From an uncultured Bacilli bacterium (GTDB lineage Bacteria; Bacillota_I; Bacilli_A; RF39; UBA660), in the NCBI GenBank assembly GCA_944363705.1, contig CALVUY010000008.1:1-32852 (forward strand): a stretch of 32,852 nucleotides of DNA, in the 5' to 3' direction. This document shows, piece after piece, positions 82 to 26,075 of this stretch. The translations under genes and the position numbers were made by a program. The notes below the pieces were generated by a model that saw only the letters and a program-made list of their open reading frames with translations, was not told the DNA's origin and ran no database searches. How positions within the stretch are numbered: position 1 is the first letter of the stretch; each line of letters opens with the position of its first letter.

Positions 82-786
82 TTATAATTTATTATTGTTT
101 CTATTTTTTAAAATTAATAGGAGTAAAATAACAAGTACTACTACTATTACAAAAACAATAGGAGTTAAATTATCTATAATATTTAAATTATATCCATTAC
201 TAACATTATTTTCAGTGTTTATTAACATATCAATACTTTTATTACTGTCTCTATTAAAAACCCATGTATATATATTACCATCAACACTATCAGCATTATT
301 CTCTTCTACAAAATAATCTGTTTTAATATTTACCCTCACTTCTTCTAAAAGAGGATAATCATCAAAATATAATAAACCATTATTATCAGTTGTTATTGAA
401 ATAGTATGATTACTATCATTTACAGAAATATTATAATTTCTAAAACCATCTTTAACAGTTCTAGCTTCTTCGTATTCATTAATATCAAAATTATATCTAT
501 AATTAAATAAATATCCATTACCTAAATCAGTTTCTGTCTTTTCATAATATTTAATATCAGGAAATGGTTGATCTATTTCAGCATCAACAATTACATCAGA
601 AGCATATATAGGAATATAATTTCTAAAAGAAGACTTTATTATATCTTTAGAATAAACAGCATTTTGATAAAAAGTAATATCAACACTCTCATCAATATTA
701 TTATCACTTATTTCAAGATTAACTTCAGCACTACAACCACACATCATAAAAATTATTAATATCAAACTAAAATATTTAATTTTCAT
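82..786 (-). CDS. Putative lipoprotein with C-terminal membrane anchor (LppM-like)
   Basis: 234 aa. The N-terminus is a basic and hydrophobic signal ending in a lipobox-like MMCGC around Cys18, although the -2 Cys and -3 Met are not typical. The body is mostly polar and beta-like. A second hydrophobic stretch near residues 203-226 is followed by a short basic tail, so the protein is probably anchored at both ends with its body outside. The overall layout (lipobox, beta-rich domain, C-terminal TM) resembles LppM-type proteins, which is a weak family guess. The start is supported by AAGGAG six bases upstream. That ribosome site overlaps the stop codon of the upstream NlpC/P60 gene, so the two are translationally linked. 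It is the last recognisable gene of the secretion block; nothing is recognised in bases 1-81. Its role is unknown. Confidence 0.6.
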   Translation of the reverse strand: MKIKYFSLILIIFMMCGCSAEVNLEISDNNIDESVDITFYQNAVYSKDIIKSSFRNYIPIYASDVIVDAEIDQPFPDIKYYEKTETDLGNGYLFNYRYNFDINEYEEARTVKDGFRNYNISVNDSNHTISITTDNNGLLYFDDYPLLEEVRVNIKTDYFVEENNADSVDGNIYTWVFNRDSNKSIDMLINTENNVSNGYNLNIIDNLTPIVFVIVVVLVILLLLILKNRNNNKL

Positions 787-788
787 AT

Positions 789-2150
789 CTAGCTCCTTGC
801 TTGGGTATCATAAAACCCATCCATATTTACCCCCCAATATCCAGATCTAGTGAAAGGTCTTGATGTAAATAATACACCTGTTGTTCTTCCAGAAGCTTCA
901 GCACAAATATAACCATATTCTTCTACTGCTATTACTAAAGCAATATGAGAACTAGATTCTAACAAATCACCTGGTTCTAAAACAGCACTATCTTTTAACT
1001 CTACTCTTTCTGCCCCAGGTAAATTTTGAAAGCTACCCGTTGTTAAAGGAGAAATATTATATCCACCATTATAAATAGCCCAAGTAACAAATCCTGAACA
1101 ATCAAGACCACAAGAAGTATAAGCATGACCATTAGCATAAGTATAACAACGGCCACTTCCCCAATTAGCTTCAGCTCCTTCTGAAATAGTACCATGACCA
1201 CCACCCCAGAAATAAGGAATTTTAACATTATAATTATTACCAAGTTCCGCAATTAAAGTAACAGCTGAGGCTACAACACCAGCTCTAGTTCCATAACCTG
1301 AATCTTCAACATTAGAAGCAATAAGTTCATTAAATTCAGTTAAATTAGTACCTCTACTAACTAAAAAGGTATCTAAAGACTCATTAAGTATTTCATCACC
1401 ATCAGAAACAAGTTCATAATCACCATAATTAATATTACCTACACCACCACTACTAGCTAAAGCAGTATCAGCACCAAAAAGACTATTAAAGAAACTTAAA
1501 ATAAGTATAAAAGGAATCAGAATAGTCAATAATCCTGAAAAAGTACTACCTAATGCTAAAGCAAGTTTTAATTGCTTTGGAATCTTACCAAAAAAACTAA
1601 ACTTACCAGAAAGATTATTACTAAAAAGCGAACCTAAAGGATTAGAAGATTTTTTTTCACTAGTATCATCAGAAGAATTAATATCACTATTACTACTAGT
1701 CGCTCCACTACTACCAGAATCAAGAGTACCATTATCACTCTCTTGACTCTCTGTACTAGCACCTGAAATACCAGTATTTCCAACTGAACCAACATTTCTA
1801 TTACCAATAGCATTTTTAACATTATTAAGCACATTAAGTGCCTTTAAAGCAGGATGTAAATTACTAACTTTATTAAGTGCCCTATTAGCAAGTTGGCTTT
1901 TTAATCCCCCACCAACACTATTAGATCTATTAGAAACAGGTATATTATTATTATTACTAGAACTAAGAGGTTGTTTTCTACTCTTATACTTATTTTCAGA
2001 AACAGCTCCTGCAACATTACTAGCAGCATCCCTAAGTGATGATTTAGAAGAAGACTTAGACTTATCTTTTGTTTCTGAAGTATTTGTATTATTTAACTGT
2101 TCTTGTTCATGATTATTTTCAGTATTTAATTTTTCTTCTTCCACTTTCAT
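789..2150 (-). CDS. NlpC/P60 peptidoglycan hydrolase with cytoplasmic low-complexity N-terminus
   Basis: About 453 aa. The first ~190 residues are Ser/Asn/Lys-rich low complexity without a signal peptide. One hydrophobic segment follows (about 195-222), and then an extracytoplasmic region. The C-terminal ~140 residues carry an NlpC/P60 core: DCSGF with the catalytic Cys near 351, then GDLL and SSHIALVI with the catalytic His near 402. This fold cleaves peptide stems in peptidoglycan. Membrane-anchored NlpC/P60 enzymes are the usual VirB1-like wall-opening factors of Gram-positive type IV secretion systems, which fits the neighbours. The ATG at 2150 is chosen over a GTG one codon upstream; the ribosome site (AGGTG) is weak. 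The long disordered cytoplasmic region is unusual and may bind other parts of the machine. Confidence 0.85.
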   Translation of the reverse strand: MKVEEEKLNTENNHEQEQLNNTNTSETKDKSKSSSKSSLRDAASNVAGAVSENKYKSRKQPLSSSNNNNIPVSNRSNSVGGGLKSQLANRALNKVSNLHPALKALNVLNNVKNAIGNRNVGSVGNTGISGASTESQESDNGTLDSGSSGATSSNSDINSSDDTSEKKSSNPLGSLFSNNLSGKFSFFGKIPKQLKLALALGSTFSGLLTILIPFILILSFFNSLFGADTALASSGGVGNINYGDYELVSDGDEILNESLDTFLVSRGTNLTEFNELIASNVEDSGYGTRAGVVASAVTLIAELGNNYNVKIPYFWGGGHGTISEGAEANWGSGRCYTYANGHAYTSCGLDCSGFVTWAIYNGGYNISPLTTGSFQNLPGAERVELKDSAVLEPGDLLESSSHIALVIAVEEYGYICAEASGRTTGVLFTSRPFTRSGYWGVNMDGFYDTQARS

Positions 2151-2202: not shown

Positions 2203-2673
2203 TCAAAGTAATAATTCAACTTCATATTTAAAAACAGCATCAACATAAAAAATAATTGTTTGATTATTACTATTTACAATTGTATAAATAGAACTATTAT
2301 CACCATTTCTAATTTCATAACTAACAACTTTATTACTGTAATAATTATTTATCAAATCAGCTCTAAACATCTGAAAATCCTCTAATAAAACAGCATCTTT
2401 ATTTCTAACTCTCTTATAAGCTCCTTCTAAATCATTAACAACTAAATTTTTAAAATGATTATAATATATGGTTGCAAGTTCTTTATTAGGAATATCTTTA
2501 ACTTCATAACTATTATCAGAACTTTTAGATGAAACATTATTAAACTCACTTAACTCTTCTTCACTTGGAAGATTTCTATTTGCCTCTTCCACACCACTTA
2601 TATTACGAAATATTAAAAAAAGAAGTAAAATAGCAAGTATTATAAAGACAACTATTTTTATAACTCTTTCCAT
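2203..2673 (-). CDS. Small membrane-anchored protein, possible VirB8-like (NTF2 fold)
   Basis: 156 aa. It has an N-terminal TM (about residues 6-24), a Ser/Glu-rich linker, and then a ~90-residue soluble domain outside the membrane. The pattern is helices (NKELATIYYNHFKNLVVN) followed by strands ending in YVDAVFKYEVELLL. This matches the architecture of VirB8/TcpC-type NTF2-like proteins, which sit in the conjugation channel of both Gram types. No conserved motif proves this. The start ATG overlaps the upstream stop (TAATG), so translation is coupled to the next gene, which has the same architecture. The pair may form a heteromer or reflect duplication. Confidence 0.5.
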   Translation of the reverse strand: MERVIKIVVFIILAILLLFLIFRNISGVEEANRNLPSEEELSEFNNVSSKSSDNSYEVKDIPNKELATIYYNHFKNLVVNDLEGAYKRVRNKDAVLLEDFQMFRADLINNYYSNKVVSYEIRNGDNSSIYTIVNSNNQTIIFYVDAVFKYEVELLL

Positions 2674-3197
2674 TAAGAATCACTCTCCCCTATCTTATTT
2701 AAATATATAATATCTGAAATAGGTTCAATAGCAAAAGCTAACTCATTCTCATCAATAGTTACTATATAATAATTATAACCTTGCAATGTTGAAGTATATA
2801 AAGTTTCTAACTTAAGCACTACTTTAACATAATATTTATATACATTTTTATAAGAACTAACTTGATATGCTTCTTCTAAACTACTTTTAATATTAGATTC
2901 ATAATTTCCTACAAAATCATAGATATTAGTAGAAGTAATATTATTTCTTTGCACATAATCTTGATCTAATACTTTAAAAAGAGAGTCACTATTTTTTGAA
3001 GTAACATAAGAAAAATATTTAGAAATAGCAGAATCAATAGTAAAAAAGCGATTAACATCAGCAAGAGCTGTAACAGATGTATCTATCTGTTCTTCTTCCA
3101 CCTGACCTTCAACAATTCTCGTATATATAAGACTAATAGCGAACATAACAATCAAAAAAATAATTATAAATATTTCAATTTTTACTGTTTTACTCAT
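2673..3197 (-). CDS. Small membrane-anchored protein, possible VirB8-like (NTF2 fold)
   Basis: 174 aa from the ATG at 3197, preceded by AGGAGG at good spacing; an upstream in-frame start would overlap the preceding gene and lacks such a site. A TM lies at about residues 6-26. The remaining exported domain begins with helices (DVNRFFTIDSAISKYFSYV) and ends with strands around YYIVTIDENELAFAIEPI. Size, topology and position beside VirB4/VirB6-like genes fit a VirB8/TcpC-like channel component, but the call rests on architecture only. It overlaps the next gene by one base. Confidence 0.5.
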   Translation of the reverse strand: MSKTVKIEIFIIIFLIVMFAISLIYTRIVEGQVEEEQIDTSVTALADVNRFFTIDSAISKYFSYVTSKNSDSLFKVLDQDYVQRNNITSTNIYDFVGNYESNIKSSLEEAYQVSSYKNVYKYYVKVVLKLETLYTSTLQGYNYYIVTIDENELAFAIEPISDIIYLNKIGESDS

Positions 3198-3207
3198 AAT
3201 TAGCCTC

Positions 3208-4935
3208 CTATAAACCAAATATTGTATTTCTAAGTTCTAATTTTTCCTGTAATTGCCAAGCAGTATAATCATTTTGTTCACAAACAGTAGTAGGAACATT
3301 ATCACCAGATGGAACAGTATCACAATAATTAGAACCATATATTATATTTAAATAATAGCAACCTCCCAAACTAGAACTACCAGGGTTATAACGATAATTA
3401 CCTAACCAAGAATAAGCTGATTGCATACCAGCTAACGTTCCTGGAGGTCCATGACCTGCCGGATCACATCCAGCCTCTTCTCTAGCTTGATTTCTTTCCT
3501 CAATTAAACTAGCATTGCTACCACCAGGTTGATATTCTTTTAAAGTATCAGCATACTCACGAATACCTTCTGCAAGCGAATGTAATTGAGGCCCAGCAGA
3601 ACAACTCTGCCCATTAGGAATACCAATTCCCCAAAAATTATAAAGGTCTCCACATTTTTTCCATGATTGTTCTGTACCTGCAGTTACAACAACAAGTTCT
3701 GGATTAACACCTGAATCCATCGATACATCATAAACTTCCTCGGCATGATCTGCAAAGTTAGTACAAAAAGCACTATTACCACTACTATCACAATATGCTT
3801 CCATTTTAGAAATAAACTCTTGTTTTGATAAAGAAGTAGAACCTAATGAAAAATCAACACAACTTGGACGAGGATTATCAATACTAACATAATCTAGTGG
3901 ATCAACTCTATTTTCTTGAGTATCTCCACCAACTCTAACTTCAAAATGTAAATGCATACCTGTAGAATTGCCAGAATGCCCCATTTTACCTATTACTTGA
4001 CCTTGTTTAACAGTATCTCCTGCTCTAACAGTAATACTATTTTGAGCCATATGTGCATAATAAGTATAATTACCATCAGAGTGCTCAATAACAACATAAT
4101 TACCAAAACCACCACCATCTTCATTTCCAAGATAACCATTATCAGCATACTGAGTCTGTGAATCATCAGTAGGATAAATCACAACCCCATCTTTGGCAGC
4201 AATTATATTAGTACCACCTATCTCATTATCATTAGAAATATCAATCGCACCATGGTCACCCTGATGTACATCATCATTACCTGCAAAAAAGGCAGTTATT
4301 TCTGAAGCAACAGGATCCCCACTAGCAAAAGTAATACCATTCTCTGTAGTTGTCTCAGCACTACCAATAGGCCACCAATAAGAATTACCATCACAACTAG
4401 TTGAAGAAGTACCCTCATCCTCTTGTCCTTGAGTAAAGTCTAAATAATCTTCTACATAATCAAAGACATCATTAGCCATAGACTGACAAGTAACATCAGA
4501 AAGATCAGAATCAATTCCTTTAAAATAATCAGCTAACTTATCTTTAGCTTTTTCCTCTGCTTCATCAGAAAAAGTAATCGCTTCACCTTCTTGATCAGCA
4601 TTATCAAGTAATATATTAGCAACTTCACGCATTCTACCTTTACTCATATCATCATAAGTAAAACCTTCTATATGTGAACACATAACAGAAAAAGCAGAAG
4701 TAATAATTAATTTTGAAACATCTTGTTCTTCTTCCCTATATTCATTATATACATCGTCTAATCTATCATAATATTTTTCAGCAGCATCACTATAAGAAAC
4801 ATAATCTATACTATCTATTGTTTTATCTATTCTAAAAAAGCAGGTAACCCCTACAAGAAAAACAGAAAATATTAAACCTATAGTAACAAGTTTTACCTGC
4901 CAAAAAGATCTATTTTTTTTATTATTCTTACTCAT
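3208..4935 (-). CDS. Bifunctional wall hydrolase: M23 metallopeptidase plus lysozyme/glucosaminidase-like domain
   Basis: 575 aa, anchored by a TM at about residues 12-34. Residues 40-180 are helical and acidic. An M23 (LytM) domain spans about 205-350, with zinc ligands visible as HGAID (His228, Asp232), His295 in YYAHM and MHLHFEV (His328, His330). The C-terminal region (about 370-575) looks like a glucosaminidase or lytic transglycosylase fold: NPELVVVTAGTEQSW (candidate catalytic Glu422) followed by FWGIG, plus several Cys residues. M23 enzymes cut peptide bridges and the second domain would cut glycan strands. Two-domain hydrolases of this kind are typical of Gram-positive conjugation systems, where they open the wall for the channel. 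The ribosome site is weak. The M23 call is firm; the second domain is moderate. Confidence 0.85.
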   Translation of the reverse strand: MSKNNKKNRSFWQVKLVTIGLIFSVFLVGVTCFFRIDKTIDSIDYVSYSDAAEKYYDRLDDVYNEYREEEQDVSKLIITSAFSVMCSHIEGFTYDDMSKGRMREVANILLDNADQEGEAITFSDEAEEKAKDKLADYFKGIDSDLSDVTCQSMANDVFDYVEDYLDFTQGQEDEGTSSTSCDGNSYWWPIGSAETTTENGITFASGDPVASEITAFFAGNDDVHQGDHGAIDISNDNEIGGTNIIAAKDGVVIYPTDDSQTQYADNGYLGNEDGGGFGNYVVIEHSDGNYTYYAHMAQNSITVRAGDTVKQGQVIGKMGHSGNSTGMHLHFEVRVGGDTQENRVDPLDYVSIDNPRPSCVDFSLGSTSLSKQEFISKMEAYCDSSGNSAFCTNFADHAEEVYDVSMDSGVNPELVVVTAGTEQSWKKCGDLYNFWGIGIPNGQSCSAGPQLHSLAEGIREYADTLKEYQPGGSNASLIEERNQAREEAGCDPAGHGPPGTLAGMQSAYSWLGNYRYNPGSSSLGGCYYLNIIYGSNYCDTVPSGDNVPTTVCEQNDYTAWQLQEKLELRNTIFGL

Positions 4936-4973: not shown

Positions 4974-6764
4974 CTAAAATCCTCCACCATTTCCAAATGA
5001 CTCTAACTCTTCTTGAGTTACAACTACATTTATTCTCATACGTCTATTACCACAAACAAATAATGCTTCACCTTGAGAATATCTCTTAATACTATCTTTT
5101 TCGTTTTCATTTAAATCTATAAGTAATGATAAATCTTCAACTGCTTGTTTTCTAAGTCCCATAACAAGATAATATGATGAGTTATCAAATATTGCTTTAC
5201 CTTGAGTAATAATAGCAGGACTAGAAAAATCACTAGGTTGTTGTGTAATTACAATAGTACCGGTATTATATTTACGAGCACGTCTTTGTACTTGAGCTAA
5301 GAAATCAGCTCCCTGTTCATTATTAGTACCAAGCAACACATGAGCTTCATCAACCATAAGAATAGTATTAACTGAAGTATCTAAACATAATCCCCAAGCA
5401 TATTTTAAAATGTTAAAGAATAGAGCATTTCTAATATTAGTATCAGAATTCATAAATTCTTTAATATTAAATACCATAAAATCACTATTAGCAGTTATAG
5501 TAGTCTTACCATCAAAATAGAACTTTAATTCTTTAACTAGAGGTCTAATCTTAAGCTCTAGTGTTTGAATAATATCTTTTTCTTTAGTTTGTTCTGTTAA
5601 AGACATAAGTCTACCTCTAATAGTAGCATAAACATCAGAGAAAGTTGGATAATCAGCTGAAGTAAACTTAGAAAAATCAGTATTAAAATCTATTCCAAAA
5701 CGTTTATAAGTATCTTGAACAATTTCACTAAACATATTAAGAACATCTTCACCAATAGATGGATCATAATACTTCATAAACGCTCTAAGAGATTGTAAAG
5801 TTCGAGTTAAAACAGTATACCCAAGTCCCTGACTAATCTCTTCATCATCAGCATCAATAATGACTTCTAACGGATTAATAAGACCATACTCTCCACCTTT
5901 ACCAATATCAACAACATCCCCACCAAAAGTTCTAGTCATCTCTTCTAATTCATTTTCTGGGTCAATTGCCACAATTTGGCAACCATTTCTAATATGAGAT
6001 CTAAGAAGTAGTTTAGCAGCAGTAGACTTACCACTACCAGAAGTACCAAGAATAATCATATTAGCATTATTTCTATTATTTTCTTTTCTAATTTGATAAA
6101 GAAATTGATTAAATAGAATTACACCTCCAGAAAAATCTACACCAAGTAATACAGATAAACCTGGATCTTTAATACTATCAAAGATAAAAGGATACATCGC
6201 TGCAATAGTAGGTGTTGGTATAGGTGTACCAATTCTCTCTTCTATATCTTGACTAGGAAAGATTGGTAAAATACTCTTTAAAACCTTCTCTTGTTCAAAA
6301 CGAAGAGATATCGCTCTTAATTCCATAGCATCCAAATAGTTTTTAACATTTACTTTCTTCAATTCAAGATCTTCCTTAGTATCAGCATTTATCATAATAT
6401 GCATTTGAAAATCAAAGATACGAGATTGACTAGAAGCAAGCATAGAAATAAAAGCTTCTAGACTCTCAGCATCCTGTCTAATTCTTTCCTTAGCAGTTTG
6501 ATCTTTCTCTTGACGATACTTCTCACGTAAATCTGCTACTTGTCTATTAATCATCTTAGACATTGTATTAAATGGTACAGGAATATGCTTAATAACTATT
6601 TTTATACCACTCATAGATGTTAATGTAGATAAATATCCAGGAGAAATAAATTTAGGATAAGATATAACAGAAAGAATAGTTGCATACTTATCACTAATAA
6701 CAAAATCACCAGGATTAAATTGCAATCCTTTAGGAGCTAATTGACTTTTTAAACTTATACTCAT
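4974..6764 (-). CDS. virB4: VirB4-like ATPase, C-terminal (catalytic) subunit
   Basis: 596 aa, cytoplasmic. Walker A is GTSGSGKST (about 240-248) and Walker B is ILMVDEAH (about 468-475), followed by QVQRRARKYNTGTIVITQQ, the arrangement of VirB4/TraE/TcpF ATPases. These hexamers power assembly and transport in type IV secretion. The first ~230 residues (LAPKGLQF, then GDFVISDKYATIL, and a helical hairpin) correspond to the middle part of normal VirB4 proteins. The extreme N-terminal domain is missing here and is encoded by the next gene upstream, which overlaps by four bases (ATGA). Together the two give about 785 aa, the usual VirB4 length. VirD4/FtsK-like coupling ATPases are related, but the N-terminal half and the adjacent PrgI-like gene favour VirB4. 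Confidence 0.9.
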   Translation of the reverse strand: MSISLKSQLAPKGLQFNPGDFVISDKYATILSVISYPKFISPGYLSTLTSMSGIKIVIKHIPVPFNTMSKMINRQVADLREKYRQEKDQTAKERIRQDAESLEAFISMLASSQSRIFDFQMHIMINADTKEDLELKKVNVKNYLDAMELRAISLRFEQEKVLKSILPIFPSQDIEERIGTPIPTPTIAAMYPFIFDSIKDPGLSVLLGVDFSGGVILFNQFLYQIRKENNRNNANMIILGTSGSGKSTAAKLLLRSHIRNGCQIVAIDPENELEEMTRTFGGDVVDIGKGGEYGLINPLEVIIDADDEEISQGLGYTVLTRTLQSLRAFMKYYDPSIGEDVLNMFSEIVQDTYKRFGIDFNTDFSKFTSADYPTFSDVYATIRGRLMSLTEQTKEKDIIQTLELKIRPLVKELKFYFDGKTTITANSDFMVFNIKEFMNSDTNIRNALFFNILKYAWGLCLDTSVNTILMVDEAHVLLGTNNEQGADFLAQVQRRARKYNTGTIVITQQPSDFSSPAIITQGKAIFDNSSYYLVMGLRKQAVEDLSLLIDLNENEKDSIKRYSQGEALFVCGNRRMRINVVVTQEELESFGNGGGF

Positions 6765-7330
6765 ACAGGCATCACCGTCCCAAACTCAGTAGAAATTCCT
6801 CCATTCAAGAAATTTTCCATAATTATTCTTAAATCATCATTACTAACTTGTGAAGCATTAAGTCCACATCCAGCAAGTCCATTAATAAGGAGTCTAACTC
6901 TTTTCTGTAAAAGATCTTCATTACTATCTTTAAATAGAATAAAATACTCAGTATCTACAATATTATTATTCATAAACATATTACCTTTATCTATATCCTG
7001 TAAAATAAGTTTACGAATAGCAGGAGAAACAGCATCATTATATAAAAGCTGTAATTGTGACATATAAACAGAAATATCAACAGGTCTATCTGCAACAACT
7101 AACCAAAACTCAAAATCTATCATATTATAGAAATTCTTAAGACCAATCAAAACATTATCTTGTTCTTGTTGATCAAGAATAAATATATTTCGTGGTGTAA
7201 TCTTAACACCTGTTACTTTCTGTTTATTATCACAAATAATAAATCCATTCTGAATACTAGATATTGGTAACCAATCTTCAGTATATTGACTAATTGCTCC
7301 TTTTTTGGACGTCTTTGACATCTTTAACAC
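6761..7330 (-). CDS. VirB4 N-terminal domain encoded as a separate gene
   Basis: 189 aa from a GTG; an internal ATG three codons later (7321) is an equally possible start. No membrane segment. It opens with DWLPISSIQNGFIICDNKQKVTGVKITPRNI and continues with alternating strands and helices, matching the N-terminal TraC/VirB4-like domain that precedes the ATPase in Gram-positive conjugation systems. It ends with TGA overlapping the ATG of the ATPase gene, so both should be made in fixed ratio. After the TGA the same frame reaches TAA one codon later, so stop recoding would not fuse them. It overlaps the end of the PrgI-like gene upstream. Whether this is a stable split or a recent frameshift cannot be told here. 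Confidence 0.7.
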   Translation of the reverse strand: MLKMSKTSKKGAISQYTEDWLPISSIQNGFIICDNKQKVTGVKITPRNIFILDQQEQDNVLIGLKNFYNMIDFEFWLVVADRPVDISVYMSQLQLLYNDAVSPAIRKLILQDIDKGNMFMNNNIVDTEYFILFKDSNEDLLQKRVRLLINGLAGCGLNASQVSNDDLRIIMENFLNGGISTEFGTVMPV

Positions 7331-7616
7331 ACCAACCTTTCCATATAAACCTTCTTCTATTAGTAAAGAAAGTATAACATTCTATAATTATAGTTAAAAT
7401 ATTATGATAATTAGGTATAGGAATAACAAGAAAAGCACATGTCAATCCAGGTATAAGAACAATAATAACTTGCCAAGTAGAAGCCATTGGAAAAGTCATT
7501 AACAAGACAAGAGAAATTAAAACACCAGTACCTAGTAATATCAAGTCAAAAGGTTTAAACCAACCAAGTATCAAGGTACCCCTCTTTGTATTTGCAGGTA
7601 TTAAATAATTATTCAC
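7290..7616 (-). CDS. PrgI/VirB3-like membrane protein
   Basis: 108 aa. The first residues (IPANTKRGTLILGWFKPFDLI) are followed by two TMs (about 24-41 and 47-67), then a short amphipathic cytoplasmic tail. This is the pattern of the PrgI family, the Gram-positive counterpart of VirB3, which lies immediately before virB4 in conjugative elements, exactly as here. It probably anchors the VirB4 ATPase at the membrane. The start is GTG with AGGAG eleven bases upstream. The end overlaps the VirB4 N-terminal gene. Confidence 0.8.
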   Translation of the reverse strand: MNNYLIPANTKRGTLILGWFKPFDLILLGTGVLISLVLLMTFPMASTWQVIIVLIPGLTCAFLVIPIPNYHNILTIIIECYTFFTNRRRFIWKGWCVKDVKDVQKRSN

Positions 7617-7636
7617 TATATATCACACTCCTATTA

Positions 7637-9694: not shown

Positions 9695-9729
9695 TAACCA
9701 TCACTTCCTTATAAATTATATTATAAATT

Positions 9730-10884: not shown

Positions 10885-10906
10885 ATTAAGCACTCCCATC
10901 ATCATG

Positions 10907-10924
10907 ATACAAGTATATCATTTA
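10907..10924 (-). promoter_or_regulatory. Extended -10 promoter with overlapping small palindrome
   Basis: Minus-strand TGATATACT is an extended -10 element upstream of the pilin-fusion gene at 10884. No good -35 is visible because the T-tract of the preceding terminator occupies that position. ATGATA and TATCAT form 6-bp arms around the -10 and could be an operator. Confidence 0.4.
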
Positions 10925-10953
10925 AAAAAAAAAATAGCAATTGTAATTGCTAT
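10924..10953 (-). terminator. Intrinsic terminator
   Basis: An 8-bp perfect stem (ATAGCAAT/ATTGCTAT) with a 4-base loop, followed on the minus strand by eleven T residues. It ends transcription of the broken pilin-fusion gene before the intact one at 10884. Confidence 0.85.
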
Positions 10954-10967
10954 CATATTTACATTAT

Positions 10968-12091: not shown

Positions 12092-12199
12092 GCCCCCCTC
12101 CCAGGTAACTATTTGTAAACAAAGTATTTCTCAAAACACACCAGTCACTTCTTACAAGCTTAACAACTTTATATTAACATATTTGTCCAATTATTAACA

Positions 12200-12229: not shown

Positions 12230-12236
12230 CACTGAA

Positions 12237-14076: not shown

Positions 14077-14091
14077 TATCTCACTTCCTTT

Positions 14092-14562: not shown

Positions 14563-14583
14563 TACTAATCACATCCTTATTAA

Positions 14584-14745: not shown

Positions 14746-14783
14746 CTTCTACACCCTCTCCTTTCCCATATCTTACAAAAATA

Positions 14784-14811
14784 ATTATACCAGATTATTA
14801 TCAATTTGTAA
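14784..14811 (-). promoter_or_regulatory. Extended -10 promoter for the Flp-like pilin
   Basis: Minus-strand TTACAA-N16-TATAAT with an extended -10 (TGGTATAAT), between the end of tadC and the pilin gene. Confidence 0.7.
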
Positions 14812-14834
14812 CCTATTTTTATAATACTTTACAT

Positions 14835-15623: not shown

Positions 15624-15625
15624 AA

Positions 15626-16519: not shown

Positions 16520-16535
16520 AAAACTCCTCCTTTTT

Positions 16536-17756: not shown

Positions 17757-17775
17757 AATCTTCACCCTTTCTATT

Positions 17776-18603: not shown

Positions 18604-18623
18604 ATCTAATCCTCCTTACTCTT

Positions 18624-19085
18624 TTAACTATCAACTTCACTATAATCTAATTCTCCAGCTCTAGTCATATCAGTTACATATTTATTTGTTAAATAATCAG
18701 TCTCTAAAATAACACTTACTCTATTAGATAAACCTAAAGCTTCACCATCAATACTAGCAGCTGTCTCTGAAGTGACCCAAACACTAACCTTAGGTGGTGT
18801 TTCATTAATATCATAAAATCCAATATCATAAGTACGACTATTATTAACATTTTCAGAAAAACGTCTAATAAAGCTTTCTACAAACTTCTCTTTATCTATT
18901 CTAAGCAAACCGCTTAAGCGGTAATAACCAACATCAACTGCATCAGTCATTGCCGCTTCAGTAGTCTCTCTTAAAAGATAATAATCAAGCTCATTACCAG
19001 TTTGATAATTTTGAACTATATTAACAACACCAAAAGTAATAATAGCCAAAATGATAATACCAACAATTAACATACCTTTACTCAT
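18624..19085 (-). CDS. TadE/TadG-like pseudopilin or pilus accessory protein
   Basis: 153 aa. An N-terminal TM (about 5-24) follows MSKG, then a helical region (LLRETTEAAMTDAVDVGYYRL) and a beta-rich exported end. The TM plus an alpha spine of the type seen in TadE-like proteins, and its place before cpaB, suggest a minor pseudopilin. Similar short proteins accompany Tad loci in Bacillota, but I cannot name the family with certainty. Start has AGGAG upstream. Confidence 0.5.
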   Translation of the reverse strand: MSKGMLIVGIIILAIITFGVVNIVQNYQTGNELDYYLLRETTEAAMTDAVDVGYYRLSGLLRIDKEKFVESFIRRFSENVNNSRTYDIGFYDINETPPKVSVWVTSETAASIDGEALGLSNRVSVILETDYLTNKYVTDMTRAGELDYSEVDS

Positions 19086-19087
19086 AT

Positions 19088-21895
19088 TTACTTAGCTCCT
19101 TTCAAGATAGCAGATTGGGCCATATATTCATTATAACAAGCAGTAGATGTATCAATAGTGTTAACACAAGTTCCATTATCTTCATTATTACATCCAATAA
19201 GACCTTCTTTTAATAACTCATTACTATTCAATACTTTATGAAGTAAATAACTACGATAAACTGTAATACCAGAAGTCTTATCATCACCAGCATTTAAAAC
19301 TTCACTACTACTATCAGTAGTTGGTTGAGCATAACTATCATATTTATTATTATAAGCCCTAACTTTTTGCATTGTCTCCGGTGTTAATACAATATGATAA
19401 TCTAAGTATCGATCACCCTCATAAATAGTATCACCCAATGTTTGTATTTGATTAATTAATGTAACCGGTTGAACAATATAATCAGGATTCTCTAAATTAG
19501 TAGCAGCACAAGTCCAATTAAATCCAACTTCTCTAGTCTCATTAGCTACTAACACAGCATCATTACCTCTTAAACTTTCAACTTCATTTATTAAGTTAGA
19601 AGCTTGTACTTTAACATCATCACTACTAGTAGGTGTAACAGAATTAGGGAATAAATTATCTAAAGAAATAGATCTATATTCATAAGCATCTATAGCATTT
19701 TCTGTTTCACCACCATTTCCACCATCACATTCTGGATAGTTAGGATCTGTTTCTGGACAACTAGGATCTTCACAAGTAGGCCAATTAGGATCATCTGGTG
19801 TACATTCAGTATCAGTTTCACCTACAGCATAGAAACAACTAACATCAAAATTCCAACCAAAATATCCATAATTTTCAATATGTCCATTTATATTCATAGT
19901 AATTGAATCTTCTATTTCTTGTTTTTGACTATCAGTCAAAGCAGAAGAATCACCACCTTGATTTACTTTCCAATCATACCAAGCAGTATTAATAGGAATA
20001 GAATTCAACTTAGTACAGTATTGATTACCAACATAAGTATAGAAATCTTCACGATCAGGATCCATTGAATGAACAGGTTGTCCTGTCTTATTATTAATCC
20101 AAGTACCAGGGAAAGTAATTATATTATGATAATGCCAAGGATCAGATTCACCATCTTCACAACTACCATCAGTTAATATAACCATATCAGGAAAATCACC
20201 ATCTACCGTAGTACTATTTAATTTTTGTGAAGAAGAGAATGTTTCTTCATCATCAGAACTATCTGAATCATTATCAATATTATCAACAACTATCTCATAG
20301 TCTGTAGTCTCATTAGTACAAGTAGCAGCTTTTTGTTCACAAGCCTTTTTAGCAGCTTTATATTCTTCAACAGCTCTTTTATATTCTTGCTGAGCAAGAG
20401 CTTCAGTTAAAACAGTATTAGAGCCACATGTCTTAGACCAACGACAACTATCACTACATAAAGTATTATCCTTATGTACAGCCTTTAAGAAACCATCATC
20501 TATTTTATAATATCTGTTATATGAGCTATATGAATAATTACCTTGAATCATTTGAATCGTTCTTCTTGTCTGATCTAAACTACGATAATAATATGGTCCT
20601 AAACCACTTGGACATCCATTATTACTATTTTGAACCCATACACCTTTTTTATAAGAACCACCTGGATGTAATTGTCTATATTGATATAAAGTATTAGCAC
20701 TAATTTCTCCATCTCTAATAGATGACTCACTATATATATCACAACTGTTAGCCATCTCAGTAGCTTCATAGAAATTATCAGTAGGAATATATAATGGACT
20801 AATAGCTTTTAAATCATCTTTAGTAAGTTCTTCATCTGAAGTTTTAGTTACATCGCTATTTTTATATACTTTATTATAACATTTATCTATACATTTCTGA
20901 GAATATTCTCCTCCATCACATTCTTCTACACAACTATCAAAATCTTCATTAGGTCCTCCTGCATCAAAAGCATTACCTCCATTAATACAAATTGGATTAG
21001 GATAACATACTTTCTTTCTAGTTGGCGGTTTAGCTGTATAACTAGAATCACAAGTTACTTTAGATTTAATTTCAATTAAGTATTGAAAACACATACCGGC
21101 TTGAGTCGCCACTGGATCACTAAAATTAACTTCTATTTCTTCTTTACATGTTACTTTACAACCTTTACCATCACTCTCTGTACCAACATGATAGTATTTA
21201 TGCATAGTTTCGTAATTATTAGTACTAAAAGCATCGCAAACTAACTTTTCAGTATTTTTAACATCATCTACTTTTTTATAAGAACTATCAATTGTAATAT
21301 CATTACCTCCATCAGAACTATAAATCATTTCATATAATTCTTCAGCTGTATCTATCCATTCTTGAACTTGCTCTACTGTATAAGTTTCATAAGTTTGTTG
21401 TGTATAACAATATGGAACAGCATTTTGCATTACTTCATCATTAACCCATCTATTACGATAATTAACGCACACAGAATCATTATATAAAGGATTATCTATA
21501 AGTCCATCTACATTAACTTGAATAGTACCAATTTCAGTTCCAGCACTAGCTTGACATGTATCAGCCATATCTTCTTTAAGGAAAAAATGAACACTACCTC
21601 CATCAGAAACACTCAAAGTTGCACTAGTACCAGCATCAAAACTACCAGAAGTACCATTAACAGTATCTCCATCAGCATAGAAAGTATAATTTAAGTTAAG
21701 TCCTGAATTATTAGTAATAGTTACTTGATCACCATTATAATTAACATCAACTTTAGCAACATAATTATCTCTAAAAAATTCCGGAGAACAGCTCTCATTA
21801 TTAGCAGCCTCTACACTATTAGTATTAGATAACATAACACCTAAGAAAGCTGTTACAAAAACCAAAGAAATAACCAATAAACTAGACTTCTTCAT
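19088..21895 (-). CDS. Large Cys-rich secreted protein, candidate surface adhesin
   Basis: 935 aa from the ATG at 21895 (AAGG eight bases upstream). A clear signal peptide ends near NSVEA. The mature protein is acidic and rich in Cys (about thirty), Asp, Asn and Tyr. No TM or LPxTG-like anchor is visible at the C-terminus. A short Cys/Pro/Asp-rich hinge near residue 700 repeats the pattern DPNxPxC three times. Part of the middle (QEYKRAVEEYKAAKKACEQKA) is helical. No domain family was recognised. It lies between a class B sortase and the Tad genes and overlaps the sortase gene by 14 bases, so it is probably a substrate, pilus-associated adhesin or stalk protein. The many Cys imply disulfides formed outside the cell. 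Confidence 0.6.
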   Translation of the reverse strand: MKKSSLLVISLVFVTAFLGVMLSNTNSVEAANNESCSPEFFRDNYVAKVDVNYNGDQVTITNNSGLNLNYTFYADGDTVNGTSGSFDAGTSATLSVSDGGSVHFFLKEDMADTCQASAGTEIGTIQVNVDGLIDNPLYNDSVCVNYRNRWVNDEVMQNAVPYCYTQQTYETYTVEQVQEWIDTAEELYEMIYSSDGGNDITIDSSYKKVDDVKNTEKLVCDAFSTNNYETMHKYYHVGTESDGKGCKVTCKEEIEVNFSDPVATQAGMCFQYLIEIKSKVTCDSSYTAKPPTRKKVCYPNPICINGGNAFDAGGPNEDFDSCVEECDGGEYSQKCIDKCYNKVYKNSDVTKTSDEELTKDDLKAISPLYIPTDNFYEATEMANSCDIYSESSIRDGEISANTLYQYRQLHPGGSYKKGVWVQNSNNGCPSGLGPYYYRSLDQTRRTIQMIQGNYSYSSYNRYYKIDDGFLKAVHKDNTLCSDSCRWSKTCGSNTVLTEALAQQEYKRAVEEYKAAKKACEQKAATCTNETTDYEIVVDNIDNDSDSSDDEETFSSSQKLNSTTVDGDFPDMVILTDGSCEDGESDPWHYHNIITFPGTWINNKTGQPVHSMDPDREDFYTYVGNQYCTKLNSIPINTAWYDWKVNQGGDSSALTDSQKQEIEDSITMNINGHIENYGYFGWNFDVSCFYAVGETDTECTPDDPNWPTCEDPSCPETDPNYPECDGGNGGETENAIDAYEYRSISLDNLFPNSVTPTSSDDVKVQASNLINEVESLRGNDAVLVANETREVGFNWTCAATNLENPDYIVQPVTLINQIQTLGDTIYEGDRYLDYHIVLTPETMQKVRAYNNKYDSYAQPTTDSSSEVLNAGDDKTSGITVYRSYLLHKVLNSNELLKEGLIGCNNEDNGTCVNTIDTSTACYNEYMAQSAILKGAK

Positions 21896-22667
21896 TTTCT
21901 TCACCTTCTTTCATTCTTTTCTCAATTTCTTTGTAGTTTTTATTTACATCAACCGTAGAATACTTCATACTTTCACCCTCCCGTAATTCTCTAGCATCTA
22001 CTCTAAATGAATAACTATCAGTAGCACCATAAAACCTTGTACATGTATATAAAGTTAGTAACATATCACTACTATTAACATCAACATCCATATCATACAT
22101 GCTCTCATCTTTAACTTTCTTTATGTAATCATCCAACTCTTCATCATCAAATGTATCATAATATGATGAATACTGAGATTCATCAATCAATGTCACCCCA
22201 AATATCCTATAAATTGAAGTTTCACCTTCAGAATTAGTAAATTCAATAAATTGATTTTCTTCAATGAATTCAGGATATATAAAAGACATCAATTGTTCAA
22301 AATAAGTCATAGTATCATCACCAATTATAGGATTACTAGAAACATTTCTAACATTATGTGATATATAAGTGAAATGATTGCTATTTTCATCAGGAAAAGA
22401 ATTAGTCCAAGCATACTCATATTCTCTATTAGAAACATCAGCTGTATTATTTCTAGCAATTAAGGCTAAATCTATGTTAGTTCCTTCCACTCTTAACCAA
22501 CCAGTGACATCATCACCATATGTTTTCGCTTGTTCAATTTTAGAACTTTCATCTATAGCTTTAAAATCACTTGTTTTTCCAAGGTTTAAATAAAGCAACA
22601 GCAAGCAAGCGACAGCAAAGATAATAATGATACCAAAAACTATCAGATACTTCTTTTTTACCTTCAT
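21882..22667 (-). CDS. srtB: Class B sortase
   Basis: 261 aa with an N-terminal TM (about 7-28). The sortase core has GWLRVEGTNIDLALI, the catalytic His104 in YISHNV, Cys209 in LTLYTCTRF and Arg222 in SFRVDAREL. The long insertion between His and Cys strands (helix around 173-190) is characteristic of class B enzymes. Sortases cleave a sorting motif and attach proteins to peptidoglycan or to pilin subunits. Class B enzymes usually serve one or a few nearby substrates, but no canonical NPxTN or LPxTG motif with a C-terminal TM was seen in this window. Start supported by AAAGGAG. Confidence 0.88.
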   Translation of the reverse strand: MKVKKKYLIVFGIIIIFAVACLLLLYLNLGKTSDFKAIDESSKIEQAKTYGDDVTGWLRVEGTNIDLALIARNNTADVSNREYEYAWTNSFPDENSNHFTYISHNVRNVSSNPIIGDDTMTYFEQLMSFIYPEFIEENQFIEFTNSEGETSIYRIFGVTLIDESQYSSYYDTFDDEELDDYIKKVKDESMYDMDVDVNSSDMLLTLYTCTRFYGATDSYSFRVDARELREGESMKYSTVDVNKNYKEIEKRMKEGEENEEV

Positions 22668-22682
22668 AATTTACTCCTTTAC

Positions 22683-24530
22683 TTAATCTACAAGTGTATA
22701 TGGATCATCCAAAGTACCACTTCCTTCTTCTATTATAACATCTTTATCAAAATATGCTTTAATTTTTACACCTGCAGTTATTGTATCATTAGCAGAAGAA
22801 TAAGTAAGTGTACCAGAAGATCTAACTACAGCTTTTATATTATCCTCTCTTGATGAATCTATTAACCAATACCCTGTATCTGTAGAACCGCTGCCTCTAG
22901 CACTAAAAATATCAAAAGTTGAAGGTATCGTTATTAAAAGACTATAATCTTTCGTATCATGTTTACCTTTATATGTTATTTTTTCATCATAAATAGGAAC
23001 GCTTATTTTTTTATTTACGAACAATCCTGTATTTATATATCTTATCATATCATTTTTTATTTTATATCCAATATTACCTTCTTGATTAGGATTATAAACT
23101 TTCTTTTTATTACCATTTGTATAACTAATATTTACTTGCATACCATCAGACTGTAAAGCAGAATTCATAATAACCTCAGTTGTACCGTCATCTAAAATAT
23201 TACTAATTCTAAATGTATAACCAGAATACTCTACATACTCACCAATTTGTCTTTTGTTTAATTCACTGCTTCTCCTAGCTTTACTTTTTTCTAATATAAT
23301 ATAAGGATCAGTAAAACTTCCATCACCATCTAATATTGCAACAGAATCTTTTAAAGTAATAGCAGGTACTACATTTAATAGACTGTCTTGACTAGTCGCA
23401 GCCAAACTTCCTGGATAAGCAGCTACAGAAGTAATAGCCCAGGCATTATTATCATTTGCAAAATTAGAATACCAGCTAAGATTACTTTTATCAAGATAGC
23501 TAACCATACCATCATAACTTAAATTATAATCCTGCAACGATAAAATACCAACTTTTCTTTTTGCAGTTTCTCTACTACATTTTGTAACAGAAGAAACTTC
23601 TCCTTCAGATACCACATCATCACACCAACTACTAGATTTAATTAAATCTTGATATTCTGGCTCTAATAAATTATAAAAATAATCATTTAACCAACTATCT
23701 AATGAACTCCCAGCAAATCTCCCCTCATTAGTATAATCTACATTAGCAAGAGCATCATTACTTACAATAACAACACTATCATCATCATTAACCCTAACTA
23801 TTCTAAATAACATATTACTAAACATTATATAATTATCAGTAACATTACCAACATAATAACCATTAGTATCTTTCGTAGCTTCTTTTACAATTTTACTAAG
23901 AGATTCTTCCACTTTAACAGTCCTTGTTACAGTAGTTCTATTATCAAGACTATCTCTAGCTGTATAAGTAATATCATAAGTACCTACTGTAGAAGTATCA
24001 ACTTCACCTTTAATAGTTACATTTTCTACATTCATTTTCCCATCAACATTATCAACAACACTTTTAACACCAGGTTCATTATACTGATCTCCTCTACTAA
24101 TACTCATATCAGTAGATCCATTAAGTGTTATTTCAGGTCCTTCATGATCAACATCTGACTCAAAGTTACCACACTTCAAATAAGTATAATATTGATACTC
24201 ACCGTCTTTATTAATCGCTTTAACATTAGATTCTTCCAAATCACATAATTTATTACCATAAGCCTCATATAAGCCATCTAAATAATCTTGCTTAACCAAA
24301 GTATTCAAAGTAACAGAAATAACCCGTCCCTCCTCTTTAGGAAGACGAGAACTATTTATCTCATAGTACCTTTCACCAGCCTCATTTAATTTCTGCTCAT
24401 TATCTTTAAAAACTCTTCTTGGATAAAGATATAAAAACCACACTAATAAAAGAATTACTACAATTACAGCAATAAAAGAAATAATTTTAATTATTTTCTT
24501 TTTATCAATATTTTTTTTCTTATTTTTCAT
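22683..24530 (-). CDS. Anchored surface protein with Ig-like (DUF5011) and two DUF6273-like modules
   Basis: 615 aa. A basic N-terminus and a TM (about 15-36) are followed by a pseudopilin-like segment (helix EQKLNEAGERYYEI, then TLNTLVKQDYLDGLY with paired Cys). An Ig-like DUF5011 domain spans about 129-208 (NEPGVKSVVDNVDGKM, then GTYDITYTARDSLDN). After it come two similar modules (about 210-415 and 420-615), each starting with a short framed motif (NYIMFSNMLFRIVRVNDDD; YVEYSGYTFRISNILDDG) and ending with GxGxxxDPYxL, as in DUF6273-type surface modules. It should be exposed outside the membrane. Start has GGAG upstream. Function is not known; adhesion or pilus-tip roles are possible. Confidence 0.65.
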   Translation of the reverse strand: MKNKKKNIDKKKIIKIISFIAVIVVILLLVWFLYLYPRRVFKDNEQKLNEAGERYYEINSSRLPKEEGRVISVTLNTLVKQDYLDGLYEAYGNKLCDLEESNVKAINKDGEYQYYTYLKCGNFESDVDHEGPEITLNGSTDMSISRGDQYNEPGVKSVVDNVDGKMNVENVTIKGEVDTSTVGTYDITYTARDSLDNRTTVTRTVKVEESLSKIVKEATKDTNGYYVGNVTDNYIMFSNMLFRIVRVNDDDSVVIVSNDALANVDYTNEGRFAGSSLDSWLNDYFYNLLEPEYQDLIKSSSWCDDVVSEGEVSSVTKCSRETAKRKVGILSLQDYNLSYDGMVSYLDKSNLSWYSNFANDNNAWAITSVAAYPGSLAATSQDSLLNVVPAITLKDSVAILDGDGSFTDPYIILEKSKARRSSELNKRQIGEYVEYSGYTFRISNILDDGTTEVIMNSALQSDGMQVNISYTNGNKKKVYNPNQEGNIGYKIKNDMIRYINTGLFVNKKISVPIYDEKITYKGKHDTKDYSLLITIPSTFDIFSARGSGSTDTGYWLIDSSREDNIKAVVRSSGTLTYSSANDTITAGVKIKAYFDKDVIIEEGSGTLDDPYTLVD

Positions 24531-24545
24531 TATCCAACGCTCCTT

Positions 24546-26075
24546 TTAATTCAAATGATAAATATATTGTTCATTCCTAAAAGTAAAAATCAAATCTAAT
24601 GTCCCATCATCTTTAACATCATTAGGTAAACTGTAATATGCATAATTTCCATTGTAATTATTTACTAAAGAAGTGGCATCTATACTATTAATTTCTCCAT
24701 CATTATCCTCATAATTAATTTTAGCATATATATTAGAAAAGTCAACAAAAGATTGTCCTGTAAAATTATTACTTACAAAAGATATTTCTAATATTTTATT
24801 GCTAGAACTTAATGGTAATTCCATTACCCCACAGCCAGTATCATTACAAGAATATCTGCTATAGGTTGTTTCATTAGTTAAATTAAAATTAGTAATTAAT
24901 AGTGTATTATCATCTGGGAAAGTCAAAGTCTCAGTAATTTTAACTTCTTCTTTTGTTTCTAAGTCACGTACATCTTTAACATTTAACTTAACTTTCTTAA
25001 GTAGAATATCATTACTAAGATCAGGATAGTATAAAACATATTTATTAATGTCTAAATCTTTCGAAACTTTATAAACTAAAATAAATGTCGTTGATGAATC
25101 AGTCACTAATTCTCTATTATCATAACTATTACCTAAATCTTTAAAGTTATCATAAAGTCTAGTAACATAATGAAACTCTTCACTTTTATTCATAATTCTA
25201 AATCTATCTAAATTAATCCTTCTTTTTGAAGCATTATTCTTAACAGTAACATTAACAACTAAATAATCGGTATTATTACTAATAATATCACCATTACTAT
25301 CTCTATTAGTCAAATAACTATTATTAACAGTAATATCGTAATAACTAGCACTAAAAGTACTACCTTCCCTATAAGTTTTATTTAAAATTCCAAAATAGTA
25401 ATATGTATATCCAGTAACAGAAACAAATAAAACTACTATAATAGTATTACAAACAAGACGATGTTCAAGATATACATATTTAACATTTCTAATAAACTTC
25501 TTTATATTTCTAGAAATTTTATCTTTATCAAACTCTATATTTACTTCAAATTCTTCTCTATCTTCTTCTTTTATATCTAAATACTCTTCATCTTCTTTAA
25601 AACCAAATTTCTTTAAATCTATTCCTAAAAATCTTATTCCGAAAATAACAAAAACAATAAATTGAGGTATATAAACTATATTAAGAAAATCTCTTCCTGC
25701 CATAATTGATGTTATAGTAGACAACTCATTATAACTAATAAAATAATTTCTTACGTATATTAAAACCCCCAACATGACAGTATATTCAACTATAGGAATT
25801 AAATATACTTTCCAAGGTTTTTTCTTATAACGCAATAAAATTATTAAAATTATACTAACAACAATAATTACAATTATTGAAATGATTAATAAAAAATTTA
25901 TATGATCACTTATTGGTTCATAGTAATTATTATAACTCTCTGTCTCCAAAAAATTTGCTACAAAACTTCTTAAAGCCATTAATTTATAAAAGATATAAGC
26001 ACTAAGTAAAATTAATAATAAATGTATTCTTTGAAAGTATTGTATTAAAAGAGCATATGGTTTTCTAAGTATCAT
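24546..26075 (-). CDS. Polytopic membrane protein with exported Ig-like (DUF4352-like) domain
   Basis: 509 aa. TMs at about 10-35, 58-85, 93-112, 130-150 and 210-230, with a charged Glu/Asp/Lys loop (about 155-205) on the cytoplasmic side. The C-terminal ~270 residues are exported and beta-rich: YDITVNNSYLT, then YLVVNVTVKNNASKRRINLDRFRI, resembling DUF4352-type domains found in surface and stress lipoproteins. No enzyme motif was seen. It is the first gene of the long minus-strand block and has its own promoter. A role in envelope anchoring of the pilus machine is only a guess. Confidence 0.5.
   Translation of the reverse strand: MILRKPYALLIQYFQRIHLLLILLSAYIFYKLMALRSFVANFLETESYNNYYEPISDHINFLLIISIIVIIVVSIILIILLRYKKKPWKVYLIPIVEYTVMLGVLIYVRNYFISYNELSTITSIMAGRDFLNIVYIPQFIVFVIFGIRFLGIDLKKFGFKEDEEYLDIKEEDREEFEVNIEFDKDKISRNIKKFIRNVKYVYLEHRLVCNTIIVVLFVSVTGYTYYYFGILNKTYREGSTFSASYYDITVNNSYLTNRDSNGDIISNNTDYLVVNVTVKNNASKRRINLDRFRIMNKSEEFHYVTRLYDNFKDLGNSYDNRELVTDSSTTFILVYKVSKDLDINKYVLYYPDLSNDILLKKVKLNVKDVRDLETKEEVKITETLTFPDDNTLLITNFNLTNETTYSRYSCNDTGCGVMELPLSSSNKILEISFVSNNFTGQSFVDFSNIYAKINYEDNDGEINSIDATSLVNNYNGNYAYYSLPNDVKDDGTLDLIFTFRNEQYIYHLN

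Follow-up and report, generated by a model that had tools for sequence, protein, structure and literature searches.

What does a bacterium do with a pilus and a conjugation-type channel encoded head to tail on its chromosome? The question is raised by a 32,852-nucleotide stretch of DNA from an uncultured Bacilli bacterium (GCA_944363705.1, GTDB lineage RF39; UBA660), which we call the window and which is contig CALVUY010000008.1 from its base 1, in a genome of 1.46 Mb and 112 contigs. The minus-strand genes from 26075 down to 82 are co-directional, and they encode a Tad-type pilus module, then an array of VirB2-like pilins, then the module of a monoderm type IV secretion system (T4SS). Intergenic gaps in this block are at most 92 bases, with one exception of 230, and none of the five terminator-like sites within 7000-26700 is on the minus strand of the block. 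A first-pass annotation of the window had described the Tad and T4SS genes as one co-directional block, and so they are. Our best reading is that the locus belongs among the Bacillota conjugation apparatuses that repeatedly pair these modules, and that it is a fixed descendant of a conjugation apparatus, with the pilus as its grappling organ. To this reading, in which a monoderm (MPF_FATA-like) T4SS without a relaxase sits on the chromosome beside a Tad-type pilus, has a VirD4 coupling ATPase of its own and has been repurposed for contact-dependent translocation, we give an even chance.

The coupling protein VirD4, which the first-pass annotation reported as absent, lies just beyond the window, and it is missing from the window because the contig edge at base 1 cuts it off. 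In G076, a genome of the same genus, VirD4 is the very next gene after the homologue of the gene at the left end of the window, and in the genome studied here a VirD4 open reading frame (ORF) of 735 residues is at the end of another contig, C43. The G076 protein, 96% identical to that of this genome, matches the CD1115 conjugal VirD4 model with 303.7 bits (cut-off 250). Our 80 named loci are the best 80 from 439 relatives. VirD4 is present in every one of the 68 loci whose sequence extends 9 kb or more past virB4, and it starts 2.3-5.1 kb after virB4. We also used a sample of 117 genomes of the order; all of them share one family label (f1), so that "order" may in effect mean one family. PF02534 matches 108 of these 117 genomes. 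Measured from the family VirB4 (99 genomes), VirD4 is within 10 kb in 77 cases, on another contig in 19, more than 30 kb away in two, and unlisted in one; a VirD4 on another contig may be part of a mobile element. VirD4 matches are counted down to about E 3e-42, later rows being in genomes already counted, and G099 (2.3e-11) is counted as lacking it. After VirD4, the two ends of the block that we can compare within the genus differ: positions 5758-9764 of contig C43 (L097) include two DNA methyltransferase-like genes, recognized by eye, and others that are not there in G076 (L105), a variable stretch at this end of the T4SS block. In several genera (L098, L100, L102, L103, L109), a short gene that by eye looks rhodanese-like is found one or a few genes past VirD4.

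The T4SS is a group-wide and conserved feature. The VirB4 family is in 99 of the 117 genomes, with 64-100% identity. A sample of the whole class, 296 genomes, includes 39 of the same taxonomic family; 34 of them have this VirB4, while the best VirB4 match in the 257 genomes of other families has 320 bits and 33% identity. The VirB4 Walker A motif is intact in all 80 named loci. Between this genome and G076, VirB4 has 0.034 nonsynonymous substitutions per site (dN) and 0.53 synonymous ones (dS), and VirD4 has dN 0.019 and dS 0.28, a dN/dS ratio of about 0.06-0.07 for both. The hydrolases, the VirB8-like protein and the lipoprotein-like protein have dN of 0.2-0.4 in the same comparison. VirB4 and VirD4 are under purifying selection: constraint is strong on the motors, whereas the parts that face outwards evolve rapidly. 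The chromosomal surroundings vary. The first-pass annotation took the locus to be fixed beside the core translation genes typA, tsf and rpsB, and we see typA beside it within the genus only, in one of 15 relatives' flanks (that of G076; L145 and L151 end too early to tell).

A relaxase is not found with this system, as the first-pass annotation had noted: searches with PF03432, Mob_Pre, MobP2-type and MobP3-type relaxases detect none within the locus or next to it (MOBT, MOBQ and the remaining classes were outside the search). PF03432 matches 32 of the 117 genomes (above the cut-off in 22), and in only one of the 99 genomes does the contig of the family VirB4 also carry it, at a distance of 72 kb. 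A pLS20-type (MobP2) relaxase is in three of the 117 genomes and a MobP3-type relaxase in seven, this genome being in neither set. As a control, three relaxase queries match seven of ten comparison loci from other elements but leave all 80 family loci, with flanks of up to 10 kb, without a match. Mob_Pre proteins are scattered through 64 of the 117 genomes, which indicates that these small genomes often contain mobilizable elements (64 is the full tally; the typed rows leave out G115 and G116, which have no T4SS, and second fragments). The distance from Mob_Pre to VirB4 is 14 kb in G111 and more than 57 kb in two others. A whole-genome search for relaxase and VirD4, suggested together with the first-pass annotation, yields the VirD4 of contig C43 and, elsewhere in the genome, Mob_Pre at three places.

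The Mob_Pre proteins bear on the possibility that the locus is a standing conjugation helper, a chromosomal VirD4-T4SS that moves relaxase-bearing mobilizable elements in trans, with DNA as the cargo. The conjugal CD1115-family VirD4 has been kept and Mob_Pre relaxases are common in the group, this genome included, both of which favour a helper. Mob_Pre is, however, about equally frequent in genomes with the T4SS (55 of 99) and without it (9 of 18), so it is not enriched amongst T4SS carriers, and a group-wide machine that serves sporadic passengers would be hard to maintain by selection. We regard the helper as improbable.

How tightly are the pilus and the channel tied together? In 52 of the 55 close-relative loci with 9 kb upstream, the Tad genes are beside the T4SS (the exceptions are L018, L027 and L029). 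The expectation of a conserved gene order, which holds at this level, holds more loosely in the wider sample. Counting VirB4 matches above about 380 bits (those below have 22-36% identity and are of the mobile-element type) and CpaF matches above about 360 bits (those below have about 27% identity), CpaF is within 15 kb of VirB4 in 38 of the 99 genomes, at 15-30 kb in one, farther away on the same contig in five, and on another contig in 45, which may include assembly breaks. Co-occurrence of VirB4 and CpaF is above chance (Fisher p 2e-4, uncorrected for relatedness). In the single-contig genome G111, 624 kb separate the Tad half from the T4SS half, which is moreover divided into two blocks, one from the pilin to VirB4 and one from the hydrolase to VirD4. 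Tad and T4SS parts at unrelated sites in relatives, and a VirD4 just left of position 1, are the two findings that the first-pass annotation had named beforehand as incompatible with its proposal, and both are present. That proposal, one hybrid machine without DNA-transfer genes, serving pilus display or protein export without a coupling protein, draws on the co-directional block; VirD4 is nevertheless the adjacent gene and the modules separate in relatives, and we give it next to no credence. A strict single hybrid machine is rejected on the ground that the modules occur apart in relatives. The wider idea of a domesticated channel combined with a Tad motor survives in part: the locus is chromosomal, it is under purifying selection, and no relaxase is found beside it, while the lack of a coupling protein and the single hybrid have to be given up. 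Our reading is that the pilus and the channel are two cooperating machines, and separable ones because the Tad genes are far off or missing in some relatives.

Combinations of this kind are known from plasmids. The first-pass annotation held that Tad loci normally stand alone, and a number of Bacillota plasmids say otherwise, with CpaF and TadB/TadC-position genes in one co-directional block with VirB4 and usually VirD4. In pLS20-type plasmids (pLS20 NC_015148, Paraclostridium NZ_CP079739, and Enterococcus pZB18) one co-directional conjugation block, as here, runs from a CpaF/VirB11-type ATPase through two membrane proteins, a short DUF4320-position gene, VirD4 (CD1115), VirB6, the PrgI-like DUF5592, a TrsD-position gene and VirB4 to a wall hydrolase where shown. 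Their CpaF, VirB4, VirD4, VirB6 and TadC-position proteins are linked to those of the locus. They differ in that they are plasmids, with a MobP2 relaxase annotated on pLS20 and all three typed as MOBP, in that CpaB has no match there, and in the TadB-position protein of pLS20 (267 aa), which compares with TadB here at less than 20% in hhalign and with E 0.0026 by hidden Markov model (HMM; these and all HMM E values below refer to a set of 85 proteins). Of 90 profile-profile comparisons made with hhalign, only four are above 20%. After the DUF4320-position gene, pLS20-type plasmids have proteins of about 47 aa (L135, L139, L141-L143) that are possible mating-pilus pilins.

The nearest parts list is that of the Exiguobacterium plasmid pEYLC1.2, whose order is MobP3 relaxase, VirD4, pilin, TrbL, PrgI-position gene, TrsD, split VirB4, CpaB, TadZ, CpaF, TadB, TadC and DUF4320. 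The part sets of the Mycoplasmatota zrk4 plasmid (our record G161) and of a Parageobacillus plasmid also overlap that of the locus, and in both the zrk4 plasmid and locus L126 of G121, a genome of another family, Tad genes adjoin VirB4. Systems of the pEYLC1.2 type differ from the locus in being plasmid-borne, with MobP3 on pEYLC1.2 and MobQ on the Parageobacillus plasmid, and their VirB4 is about 30% identical. Two further cases come from the accessible parts of published work: Sulfobacillus pL15/pY0017 and the integrated Kr1 element, with CpaF/TadB/TadC, VirB4, coupling protein and relaxase on one replicon (PMC6803676), and a linear plasmid of Cutibacterium acnes with a tad locus, VirB4 and a TcpC-like protein (PMC5696575). 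As far as those parts tell, these are plasmids or an integrated plasmid, thought to be conjugative, and the Sulfobacillus backbone has a relaxase. On the chromosomal side, the parts of PMC12102498 available to us describe Patescibacteria T4SSs with TrsD, VirB4, PrgI, VirB6, VirB2-like pilins and wall hydrolases, which are widespread and mostly without relaxase; the parts list and the chromosomal, mostly relaxase-less setting are similar, whereas VirD4 homologues are seldom near virB4 (148 of 5,713) and the pilus is of the type IV kind. In Saccharibacteria, according to the accessible text of PMC12857230, a T4SS occurs together with a type IV pilus and both are essential for epibiotic growth.

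Trees were built of VirB4 and of CpaF. In the VirB4 tree, which was built without a reference set of all MPF classes, the group is a clade whose nearest neighbours from outside are five Bacilli elements, and the VirB4s of pLS20-type plasmids and of Exiguobacterium, zrk4 and G121 branch elsewhere. In the CpaF tree, this group is with the CpaFs of pLS20-type plasmids and G121, weakly (83/74). Gain or loss of the Tad/T4SS pairing thus happened more than once. Inheritance of the whole pairing from a pLS20-like ancestor was also considered; the VirB4 tree instead places the group beside elements in whose genomes no Tad-type CpaF was found, so that the pairing may have one origin or several.

If the two modules cooperate, the parts suggest a sequence of events. 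CpaF, TadB, TadC and the TadZ-like protein would push out, and possibly pull back, a pilus made of the 53-aa protein described below, a pilin that an A24 peptidase encoded elsewhere in the genome would mature. The pilus would bring another cell close, the VirB1-like hydrolases would open the wall, and VirB4 and VirD4 would feed substrates through a channel built of VirB2-like pilins and of VirB3-, VirB6- and VirB8-like proteins. Because no DNA-nicking enzyme is found beside the channel, its job has probably changed, for example to the passage of protein into neighbouring cells. With VirD4 kept and no relaxase found, protein is the most likely cargo, and it would be handed over on contact to bacteria nearby or to host surfaces. 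The strongest form of this proposal, a dedicated protein-translocating T4SS, relaxase-less and with VirD4, fixed across a Gram-positive gut group with a Tad pilus bringing it to target cells, we put forward tentatively, as the less probable outcome.

Several points weigh against these conclusions. The argument for protein cargo comes solely from the missing relaxase, and with Mob_Pre so frequent, and at three places in this genome, DNA could be mobilized in trans. The trees hold 28 and 23 sequences, some of them on long branches. The TrsD-, PrgI-, VirB8- and TadE-like proteins all compare with their pLS20-type counterparts at less than 20% in hhalign, and the VirB2-, TadZ-, TadE- and Flp-like assignments are weak. 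A CpaF query of the genomes of the five sister Bacilli elements finds nothing above 32 bits, and because these genomes hold the closest outside VirB4s, the pairing in this group may be secondary. Finally, CpaF is not found in 10 of the 99 genomes with the VirB4 family, including three genera with two genomes each, and 9 of the 98 CpaF genomes are without this VirB4; that each module can occur alone speaks against obligate cooperation.

The last point also raises the alternative that the modules are unrelated neighbours: a normal Tad pilus, used for adhesion, would share its site with a T4SS by history, and the two would do no joint work. Besides the genomes with one module, the six same-contig cases in which the two are 22-624 kb apart favour it, and so does G023, where the CpaF search is negative and the VirD4, VirB4, TrsD-like, PrgI-like and TrbL genes are still present. 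A promoter-like match points the same way: at 13092-13064 on the minus strand, the junction of the Tad and T4SS parts, there is a sigma-70-like sequence (11/12), a consensus match only, with promoter-like counts overall near chance. The linkage in close relatives and in more than a third of the wider sample argues for joint work, as does the correlated occurrence with the reservation on relatedness given above, and the pairing recurs on three or more lineages of VirB4 (this group, pLS20-type plasmids, and Exiguobacterium/zrk4/G121). We take unrelated neighbours to be a real but minority possibility, and continue to prefer two cooperating machines.

Import of DNA is another use that a relaxase-less channel could have. 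In the archaeal Ced system the relaxase is lost and VirB4-type pumps and pilins are retained, and a similar import or competence machine could be imagined here, as ComEC matches are in 110 of the 117 genomes. Of the 18 genomes that lack this VirB4, 17 also have ComEC, and because it is present with or without the T4SS we rejected DNA uptake as the main role. Most genomes moreover have a second ATPase, about 27% identical to CpaF and perhaps ComGA/PilB-like, which makes a separate uptake pilus plausible, and in known systems the coupling by VirD4 is on the export side. A DNA import machine seems to us very improbable.

The contact-dependent translocation that we favour has to be set against what is already known. 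A 2025 review states, in its accessible part, that Gram-positive T4SSs are without VirB11 homologues and, Patescibacteria apart, without VirB2 pilins (PMC12857230), and the available portions of papers on pLS20 describe Gram-positive conjugation systems as apparently pilus-less (PMC11730352, PMC8092201), although the former also names a pLS20 virB11 gene. Set beside those statements, this locus and the similar plasmid blocks carry a CpaF/VirB11-type ATPase and TadB/TadC-type proteins beside VirB4 and VirD4. If the strongest form of our proposal is true, the recurrent Tad module would in addition supply many Bacillota conjugation systems, said to lack pili, with their missing mating pilus. The plasmid precedents of the pairing are already known; new are the group-wide chromosomal version, the kept VirD4, the relaxase not found, and the frequent position beside a Tad pilus. 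As far as our searches show, this is the second large bacterial group, after Patescibacteria, with a chromosomally fixed relaxase-less monoderm T4SS. A literature search, thin on subscription journals, found no paper on this locus, secretion and pilus terms looked for in PMC7301438 and PMC10868615 gave none, and general background on Tad is in the accessible part of PMC6668835.

The genes of the T4SS module, all on the minus strand like the rest of the block, are described here from the contig edge inwards. The last gene before VirD4 (82-786) encodes a putative lipoprotein or membrane protein of 234 aa, with weak homologues ahead of VirD4 in L107 and L108. It is preceded by a 454-aa membrane-anchored NlpC/P60-like wall hydrolase (789-2153), VirB1-like and fast-evolving (dN 0.41), with a PF00877 match of 16.9 bits, below the Pfam cut-off. 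A second wall hydrolase of 575 aa (3208-4935), also VirB1-like, belongs to the M23 peptidoglycan hydrolases (PF01551, 83.6 bits). Between the two are a 156-aa membrane protein (2203-2673), a second VirB8-like candidate judging by its sequence and position, and a 181-aa protein (2673-3218) with one transmembrane (TM) helix and an NTF2-like domain. The latter was possibly VirB8-like in the first-pass annotation, and its modelled structure agrees. A first Foldseek pass with its AlphaFold2 model (mean predicted confidence, pLDDT, 86) has no match at E 0.001 or lower, with VirB8 chains amongst the top rows. Compared with known structures, the model has TcpC 3ub1 on top with Z 11.2, a root-mean-square deviation of 3.3 and 109 residues; OrfG 7pkw (Z 9.0) and TraM 4ec6 (8.7) are also neighbours, and unrelated NTF2 folds reach 9.5, in the row next to TcpC.

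The VirB4 ATPase (4974-6764, 596 aa; AAA_10 PF12846 49.5 bits, TraG P-loop PF19044 46.9 bits) is encoded apart from its N-terminal domain, which as a TrsD-like protein is a gene of its own (6761-7330). We take the split to be real because the small protein aligns to positions 92-276 of the 894 positions of NF045975, a full-length VirB4 model from mycoplasma integrative and conjugative elements (51 bits, below the cut-off); by HMM it also finds a plasmid TrsD with 5e-13. A VirB3/PrgI-like membrane protein (7290-7616) is suggested by its position and by weak HMM links to the PrgI-position gene of Exiguobacterium (1.2e-5) and the DUF5592 of pZB18 (5.6e-5), without a Pfam match. The polytopic VirB6/TrbL-like protein (7637-9694) matches PF19597 with 38.5 bits (cut-off 27) as well as NF045848/NF045889, and compares with the pLS20-type VirB6 at 96.6% in hhalign. 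PHROGs give weak or shared P-loop matches only.

The VirB2-like array has four members, and the first-pass VirB2-like assignment stands as a tentative one, with PF18895 scores of 14.3-17.8 bits, all below the cut-off of 26.6. A 391-aa protein (9730-10905; 14.3 bits) would combine a VirB2-like pilin domain with a large ectodomain, and homologues are at the same place in relatives. A second long copy (10968-12034) is interrupted, in two reading frames with ORFs of 193 and 130 aa; its C-terminal part is almost identical to that of the intact neighbour at 9730-10905, and decay, copy variation or an assembly error could each account for it. A tentative two-TM pilin of 117 aa (12265-12618; 17.8 bits) and its 121-aa paralogue at the Tad/T4SS junction (12681-13046; found in 67 loci, no Pfam match) complete the array.

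On the Tad side, the CpaF/TadA motor ATPase of the VirB11 superfamily (16536-17765) has a PF00437 match of 99.9 bits. NCBIfam scores it alike as VirB11 (111.8 bits) and TadA (109.9 bits), both below the cut-offs, so that its identity as CpaF/TadA is decided by its TadB and TadC neighbours. The TadB-like platform protein (15626-16519) compares with four plasmid TadBs at 98.4% in hhalign (E 6e-15); of those four, two match T2SSF above the cut-off, one is just under it and one has no match. The TadC-like platform protein (14835-15623) compares with four plasmid TadC-position proteins at 97.6% (E 3e-12), none of which matches T2SSF, and with the pLS20-type 245-aa protein at 93.2%; the TadC-position protein of zrk4, outside that set of four, does match T2SSF. 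A direct Pfam scan for T2SSF gives no match in 24 TadB/TadC members, PDB profile searches with TadB and TadC give chance-level rows only, and the TadB structure model is poor (pLDDT 68), with no PDB match at E 0.001. CpaB/RcpC (17776-18603) matches PF16976 with 33.0 bits (cut-off 28.8). Pfam matches thus bear out the first-pass names of CpaF, CpaB, VirB4, VirB6 and, for the M23 protein, a wall hydrolase, and the hhalign comparison with plasmid TadBs that of TadB.

Three further Tad genes are assigned more tentatively. A TadZ/CpaE-like protein of 326 aa (13096-14076), found in 59 loci, has an HMM link to a plasmid TadZ (0.0015), and Pfam and PDB profile searches with it return nothing useful. 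A candidate TadE-like pseudopilin of 156 aa (14092-14562) has an HMM link (4e-4) to the gene that follows TadC on a plasmid of Priestia. A 53-aa protein of the size of Flp (14584-14745; N-terminus MKEATGELNMTVV), found in 58 loci and placed as expected for Flp, is probably what the first-pass annotation called Flp-like. For its presumed maturation, the genome has one A24 prepilin peptidase match, outside the locus, and A24 matches are in 56 of 60 sampled genomes.

The remaining genes lead outwards to the start of the block. A 509-aa membrane protein (24546-26075) with a weak PF11611 match is its first gene, at the same place in G009, G029, G072 and G094, followed by a 615-aa surface protein with an Ig-like domain (22683-24530; PF16403, 69.1 bits), a sortase (21882-22667; PF04203, 28.1 bits, cut-off 26.6) and a 938-aa Cys-rich secreted protein (19088-21904) that is variable among genera, with 24-38% identity outside the genus. 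Next to CpaB is a DUF5411 protein (18624-19085; PF17424, 169 bits), which is also near Tad genes on Priestia and Virgibacillus plasmids. Stand-alone Tad blocks exist on plasmids too; in the Tad blocks with DUF5411 of Priestia (L134) and Virgibacillus (L138), VirB4 is not annotated in the stretch shown. Near the Virgibacillus Tad genes a class F sortase is annotated, which makes both the DUF5411 protein and the sortase parallels to genes of the window.

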